Of a DNA stretch of 64,000 nt, positions 35,984-36,404 are shown piece by piece. How positions within the stretch are numbered: position 1 is the stretch's first letter; every line of letters begins with the position of its first letter. A model generated the notes under the pieces. The model ran no database searches and was not told where the DNA came from. It saw only the letters and a program-made list of their open reading frames with translations. The stretch is from Bdellovibrio bacteriovorus HD100 (GTDB lineage Bacteria > Bdellovibrionota > Bdellovibrionia > Bdellovibrionales > Bdellovibrionaceae), in assembly GCF_000196175.1 (NCBI RefSeq), contig NC_005363.1:3286001-3350000 (forward strand), in the 5' to 3' direction. Position numbers and translations under genes: made by a program.

Positions 35984-36157
35984 ACCGCCAAAACGCTGAC
36001 GGCGAGACGACCCGGCCCTAGGAAAGGCCACACCCAAACCAGCCGCTTCGGACAGTCCTCGCGGACGCCGTCCCGTTGGGACGTGCTGCTGTGGAACTTG
36101 CGTCTGGCTTGGGTGTGGCCTTTCCTAGAGCCTGGTGTGCCGGCAAATTTTGGCGGT
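35984..36157 (+). repeat. Structured hairpin element, copy A
   Basis: A 29-base arm at 36014-36042 pairs with 36104-36132 at 27 of 29 positions. Outside it, ACCGCCAAAA (35984-35993) pairs with TTTTGGCGGT (36148-36157). Inside are a GTCC/GGAC hairpin with loop TCGC (36055-36066) and a perfect CGTCCC/GGGACG hairpin (36069-36083). The segment GCTGCTGTGGAACTTG (36085-36100) follows. The core (CCTCGCGGACG, small hairpin, CTGCTG, GGAACTTG) recurs inverted in copy B although the arms differ. Whether it works as RNA or DNA is unknown. Confidence 0.8.
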
Positions 36158-36198
36158 ATCTGGGTGCACGCTGTGCGTGTTCTCTGATCTTTTTCTAC

Positions 36199-36226
36199 GC
36201 GCTACCGAGAGCTCTCGGTGGGGCGC
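36199..36226. repeat. Palindromic hairpin between the two structured elements
   Basis: ACCGAGAGCTCTCGGT at 36204-36219 is a perfect 16-base palindrome, and GCGC sequences on both sides extend the pairing. It lies near the centre between copies A and B and could be a protein-binding site or a hairpin in the transcript. Confidence 0.6.
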
Positions 36227-36266
36227 TGGAAGCAGTGGGAAAATTCTTGTCTGGAAGGTCGGACAG

Positions 36267-36404
36267 CTTGGTCTAGGGCGGATAGGGGGAGCGGTGGTGG
36301 CTCAGCCCCAAGTTCCGCAGCAGTAGGCCCAAAGGGCCACGTCCGCGAGGATGTGTTCGAAGGGGATGAGGCGCCACCGCTCCCCCTATCCGCCCTAGAC
36401 CGAG
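36267..36404 (-). repeat. Structured hairpin element, copy B (inverted relative to copy A)
   Basis: The arm at 36270-36297 is perfectly complementary to 36374-36401 over 28 bases, and three further pairs (one G-U) extend it to 36267/36404. Read on the minus strand, the loop holds CCTCGCGGACG (36340-36350), a GGCCC/GGGCC hairpin (36326-36338), CTGCTG (36318-36323) and GGAACTTG (36309-36316), in the same order as copy A. The arms are a different sequence from copy A, yet fully paired. Confidence 0.8.

Follow-up and report, generated by a model that had tools for sequence, protein, structure and literature searches.

Copies A and B in the Window

The window, i.e., the whole stretch of 64,000 nucleotides that was analyzed, covers positions 3286001-3350000 of the genome of Bdellovibrio bacteriovorus HD100 (3,782,950 bases; label G000). 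Two hairpin elements, copies A and B, lie between divergent genes in this window, namely those of the TPR-protein/flagellar and mla transcripts, yet the two copies are themselves convergent. Copy A, on the forward strand, consists of the 5' arm of a long stem (36010-36046; inverted repeat I2 and fold), tip box 1 CAGTCCTCG (36053-36061), a variable tip hairpin CCGTCCC-GTT-GGGACG (36068-36083), tip box 2 TGTGGAACT (36090-36098) and the 3' arm (36100-36136; I2). Box 1 was recognized by its sequence and is kept in 130 of 142 copies, the tip hairpin was identified by sequence, fold and covariation, and box 2 by sequence and family comparison, the family form being TGCGGAACT or TGTGGAACT. Copy B, on the reverse strand, has its 5' arm at 36362-36404 and its 3' arm at 36267-36309 (inverted repeat I1). 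Its tip box 1 is the variant form ATCCTCGCGGACG (36340-36351; sequence and inverted repeat I4), and its tip box 2, seen in the sequence, is TGCGGAACT (36311-36319). The spacer between the convergent copies (36158-36266) contains a short palindrome at 36198-36225 and was inserted jointly with A and B.

The initial annotation had described two copies here that share the core CCTCGCGGACG, a small hairpin, CTGCTG and GGAACTTG, enclosed by stems with 27 of 29 and 28 of 28 positions paired. The positions were confirmed by the sequence and the inverted repeats, the common core matched the description, the stem counts agreed with the folds, and the inner hairpin was indeed different in A and B with its pairing retained. 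In the inverted-repeat search of the window, the arm complementarity was 89% for copy A and 91% for copy B. No Rfam family matched at the gathering threshold in the window. The genome holds about 20 copies, and a common core enclosed by differing stems is typical of the whole family and not a peculiarity of A and B. The location between divergent genes makes this pair an exception in context.

A Hairpin Family With a Conserved Tip

The exact 11-base core occurs in six copies in the HD100 genome. Five of them sit within long inverted repeats whose sequences are unlike; in the sixth (L003), another insertion has removed the 5' arm. The covariance model R1, built from five copies, found 19 copies in this genome at E below 0.01. 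With this model, 22 of the 23 other Bdellovibrio genomes gave matches, so that 23 of the 24 Bdellovibrio species carry the family, and sporadic matches occurred elsewhere in the order.

When the copies were compared side by side, the constant part was C-UYC-RRA-CAGUCCUCG, followed by an insert of 6 to 79 nt and (C)UGCGGAACU-YG. The tip is therefore irregular, with CAGUCCUCG as box 1, a variable hairpin, and (C)UGCGGAACU as box 2. The insert falls into size classes near 7, 12, 28, 43, and 77 nt in the 142 Bdellovibrionales copies. Around the tip stands a stem of 20-47 bp of almost arbitrary sequence.

The exact pattern CAGTCCTCGN{4,34}TGCGGAACT, which imposes no arm requirement, gave 79 matches in 369 Bdellovibrionota genomes, spread over 28 genomes and 11 genera, compared with 1 match for the reversed control. 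Long arms (arm score of at least 12, which is reached by 2% of random positions) were present in 132 of the 134 pattern matches read in the phylum. The A/B observation is far beyond chance. In a wider scan, among the matches listed from 84,980 species genomes, in which chance matches are expected and were told apart by their arms, there were at least 71 long-armed copies in at least 66 loci. The listed copies were mostly from Coriobacteriia and Eggerthellaceae, and the other listed carriers belonged to Clostridia, Omnitrophota, Hydrogenedentota, Planctomycetota, Myxococcales, and Bdellovibrionota.

For the copies, Rfam returned just unspecific matches to plant and animal miRNA hairpins, far below threshold, and the literature search yielded nothing relevant on such repeats or motif strings. 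The statement of the initial annotation that no known family is recognizable thus holds for Rfam and the literature searched. Phages, plasmids, and viral contigs yielded no similar DNA, and an origin from a phage, plasmid, or virus was rejected for this reason; 23 pattern matches in viral contigs had no arms and were set aside as chance. The hairpin family is previously unnamed, and its tip, which has no known partner, is conserved across distant phyla.

Arm Sequences and Pairing

The 142 Bdellovibrionales copies have a median of 39 Watson-Crick pairs, and beyond the first 15 nt or so next to the tip every position is near random in its base composition. At stem positions 10-33 of these copies, which were partly gathered by a model that rewards pairing but for which pattern-only searches agree, there were 2889 Watson-Crick cells, 58 A-C and 32 G-U (p = 0.008 for A-C versus G-U). 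Among the matches listed from other phyla, the counts were 54 A-C versus 31 G-U. G-U makes up about 0.3-1% of stem pairs and is rarer than A-C on the sense strand. Compensation in an RNA helix passes through G-U, so that more G-U than A-C would be expected, while arm-to-arm copying of DNA need not take this path. In tRNA acceptor stems G-U was likewise rare (3 of 182, with no A-C), and the comparison of A-C with G-U is therefore a stronger argument than the scarcity of G-U.

Covariation, first noticed between A and B, was found far more widely. The tip hairpin varies with covariation throughout the family, and in 25 locus groups of orthologous copies, which are not independent of one another, 867 of 1721 stem columns were unchanged and 726 were changed on both sides with Watson-Crick pairs in both species. 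Sixteen of the orthologue comparisons involved G-U, versus 62 with A-C.

Whole arm blocks were replaced symmetrically between close species with the flanks kept. The arm middles of A and B differ among G000, G002, G023, and G015, and the tip and the flanks are conserved. At tRNA-Leu(UAA), G022 and G011 have the same tRNA and downstream flank and a tip that is 92% identical, and both arms differ; the arms of G011 are those of the more distant G000.

The arms can also take in the ends of host genes. In G062, a perfect 47-bp palindrome includes the last 30 nt of tatC (assigned by PF00902, E = 4.4e-59), so that the right arm there repeats the end of this host gene in inverted form. The palindrome overlaps the tRNA 3' end in 16 of the 17 tRNA-linked copies. 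With simple ORF calls, overlaps of at least 6 nt into called genes were found 14 times among 207 copies, on both sides, so the copying is not bound to one direction. The idea that the right arm generally arises by inverted copying of the left flank was dropped as a rule because of these two-sided overlaps and the related arms of sister copies described below.

Position and Orientation of the Copies

Behind protein genes, the end of the 5' arm is in most cases no more than about 20 nt from the stop codon of a gene reading toward the element. For copies between same-direction neighbors, the sense orientation prevailed (33 versus 14 antisense; 17 versus 4 in other phyla, among the matches listed), and all tRNA-linked copies are in the sense orientation. 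About one third of the copies with called neighbors have no co-directional gene upstream. All eight pairs found with a spacing of up to about 1 kb are convergent. In most of these pairs, both copies follow a gene of their own at a distance of 29-55 nt; a pair in G012, 1.5 kb apart, is not convergent.

The inserts of 40-79 nt are rich in T (39-45%) and poor in A (10-12%) on the sense strand, e.g., in L032, L036, L065, and L068, and they fold better on this strand. A GGYTCGATG motif recurs toward their 3' side. None of the known Bdellovibrio sRNAs (PMC3627812, Table 2 coordinates) coincides with a copy.

Spread Within Genomes and Empty Sites

The inserts of the 28-nt class were 0.821 alike between different loci of one genome and 0.825 alike at one locus across genomes, compared with 0.741 otherwise. 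The outer arms follow the locus, and their identity between loci of one genome was 0.578 against a background of 0.558. Genomes have tip hairpins of their own, such as GCGCC..GGCGC in G062 and GCTCCGC..GCGGAGC in G326, and identical tips stand on unrelated arms in G078. Such genome-specific tip variants suggest spread within genomes. Sister copies with common but diverging arms were found in G057 and G326, the only places where related arms were seen.

The A/B locus was read in 22 species with the same gene pair. Only four of them (G000, G002, G023, and G015) carry the A/B unit. In the 18 other Bdellovibrio species the spacer is short and empty; the divergence between filled and empty alleles is too great to fix the element ends to the exact base. 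At these empty loci (L076-L092), a conserved short palindrome TGTCAGGCCTGACA lies in the divergent promoter region, and it is replaced in the G000 clade.

Between fadA and fadB, nine species carry the element, which is absent or replaced in the remainder. A fadA-fadB palindrome without a tip (L102, G002:C1 at about 1912389-1912434) was considered as an empty target and rejected, since its short GGCTCT direct repeats mark it as a deletion product. The same spacer holds a different palindromic element, CTCCTCGCTC...GCGCTGCGGGGAT, in L106, L107, and L116 (G005, G019, and G011, respectively). This sequence is similar to the tip boxes, and the element may be distantly related.

In 25 ortholog groups, copies were long retained at the same tRNAs and genes, and those at tRNA-Leu(UAA) are conserved across the genus and in G032. 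The long-lived orthologues at tRNA-Leu(UAA) suggest a host function over a purely selfish repeat.

No Y1 transposase genes were found beside the copies, those of the HD100 genome being at least 15 kb away, and the tip was not found in four of the best Y1 loci. Copies are present in G012, G016, and G007, which gave no Y1 match. As the copies are not adjacent to Y1 genes, a RAYT-mobilized REP was rejected. An element made by a reverse transcriptase (a retron or other) was also rejected, since RVT_1 is too rare, occurring in 4 of the 24 Bdellovibrio genomes versus copies in 23 of the 24.

Comparison With Known Systems

The family resembles REP, BIME, and REPIN sequences, which are small extragenic palindromes with many copies at gene 3' ends, spread within genomes, and an irregular hairpin with a recognizable conserved part. 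However, REPs conserve their stem sequence, whereas here only the tip is conserved, the stem is free and the arms change in concert, and no RAYT (TnpA-REP) gene adjoins the copies. Like MITEs, the copies are short, non-coding, and several in number, with inverted arms and empty sites, but MITE copies share terminal repeats and the arms of this family are unrelated between loci (0.58, background 0.56). The shared stem or terminal repeat that defines REPs and MITEs is thus missing. We place the family among the small extragenic palindromic repeats, as a REP-like repetitive 3'-end hairpin with homogenized arms.

Integron attC sites also combine conserved boxes with an irregular hairpin, a variable terminal structure, and free sequence in which folding is kept. 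Their boxes are at the base, while those of this family are at the tip; no integron context was noted, and the attC boxes RYYYAAC and GTTRRRY were not seen by eye in the copies inspected. An HDV-like ribozyme, whose L3 loop the tip recalls, was rejected on inspection, as the strand order and P1 do not fit.

Quasi-palindrome correction, or template-switch mutation, has been described as sporadic. The chemistry proposed for it is the same as that considered below, in which an arm is copied from an arm and double changes arise without intermediates. The difference is that here it would keep up an entire family of repeats that have a conserved tip in common.

Interpretation of the Family

A conserved irregular tip stands on a nearly free stem, the arms of which match and change together between orthologues. 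We consider it somewhat probable that the family consists of repetitive chromosomal hairpins, most of which follow genes or tRNAs at their 3' ends in the direction of transcription, with arms that are copied at the DNA level. One arm would be copied from the other through template switches inside the palindrome while the DNA is replicated or repaired. Such copying could run outward and convert the end of a neighboring gene or tRNA into a new arm. The initial annotation had attributed the maintained structure to either selection or a copying mechanism. The maintenance was supported, and the copying branch is favored by the double changes that nearly lack G-U intermediates, by A-C being at least as frequent as G-U, and by the inverted arm at the end of tatC. 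These observations argue strongly that arm-from-arm copying of the DNA itself preserves the complementarity. The excess of A-C over G-U has no explanation so far and is counted against this reading of the family, as are the Y1 genes away from the copies and the rarity of reverse transcriptases, the third of copies that follow no co-directional gene, the location of A and B between divergent genes, and the long-lived copies at tRNA-Leu(UAA).

The copies probably spread within a genome, aided by a putative factor that recognizes the tip. Once transcribed, the hairpin might form a directional transcript-end structure, acting in 3' stability or termination. This putative role, suggested by the location of the copies, would account for their sense direction where they follow a stop codon or the CCA end of a tRNA. 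Double changes that keep pairs are the standard sign of a functional RNA structure, and here there are hundreds of them, almost without G-U and with ends of host genes copied into the stem. The family may thus be a natural case of covariation produced by DNA copying, which calls for caution in covariation-based RNA discovery, and it offers a way to study in bacteria how one arm is copied from the other.

A bolder form of arm copying, which we regard as possible but tentative, is that the tip alone is a mobile element, which would be recognized in trans, move, and build or rebuild its arms as inverted copies of the adjacent DNA. If so, the palindrome would turn into a copy of the local host sequence.

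Alternatively, the family may be a structured RNA or 3'-UTR element (a stabilizer, processing site, or sRNA), in which selection on the transcript and compensatory mutations match the arms. We take this to be a serious candidate but on balance an unlikely one. The sense orientation behind stop codons and at tRNA 3' ends, the conserved irregular tip with its covarying hairpin, the U-rich and A-poor longer inserts with better folding on the sense strand, and the tRNA-Leu(UAA) copies kept across the genus and in G032 all agree with it. However, G-U is rarer than A-C on the sense strand, the reverse of what selection on RNA predicts, whole blocks switch on both sides between close species, and the stem takes in 30 nt of the coding end of tatC.

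It appears improbable that the family is wholly selfish, i.e., that it has no host function and inserts in a single orientation at terminators or the 3' ends of transcripts, as group IIC introns do. Such a repeat would explain the genome-specific tips, the presence or absence at orthologous sites, and the bias in orientation and position, but not why 25 ortholog groups have kept their copies for so long at the same tRNAs and genes; moreover, no mobility gene was found and the copy number is modest.

Ordinary intrinsic (rho-independent) terminators that share a loop by chance are a very improbable source: they resemble the copies in location and direction past stop codons, and some inserts contain a hairpin followed by a T-run (L038, L039, and L041), but a T-run follows the 3' arm directly in just 31 of 142 copies, the stem reaches 47 bp, the tip is conserved across phyla, and convergent genes have one copy each. 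The suggestion of the initial annotation that A and B control the divergent flagellar and mla transcripts in cis fits their place between divergent genes but can hardly hold, as 18 of 22 species have the same gene pair with an empty spacer and the family also occurs elsewhere, beside unrelated genes and beside tRNAs.

A Second Kind of Hairpin in the Tip

In two cases, a second kind of hairpin is inserted in the tip at the same point, between GGACAGT and CCTCGC. One is L003/L027 in G000 (at about 2406788-2406872) and the other is copy A of G015 (L075). The inserts, one at each place, are CGAAATGCCATCGTGGCATTTCG and GAAAAGTCCATCATGGACTTTTC, respectively; they have the center CCATCRTGG in common, and their arms are unlike.
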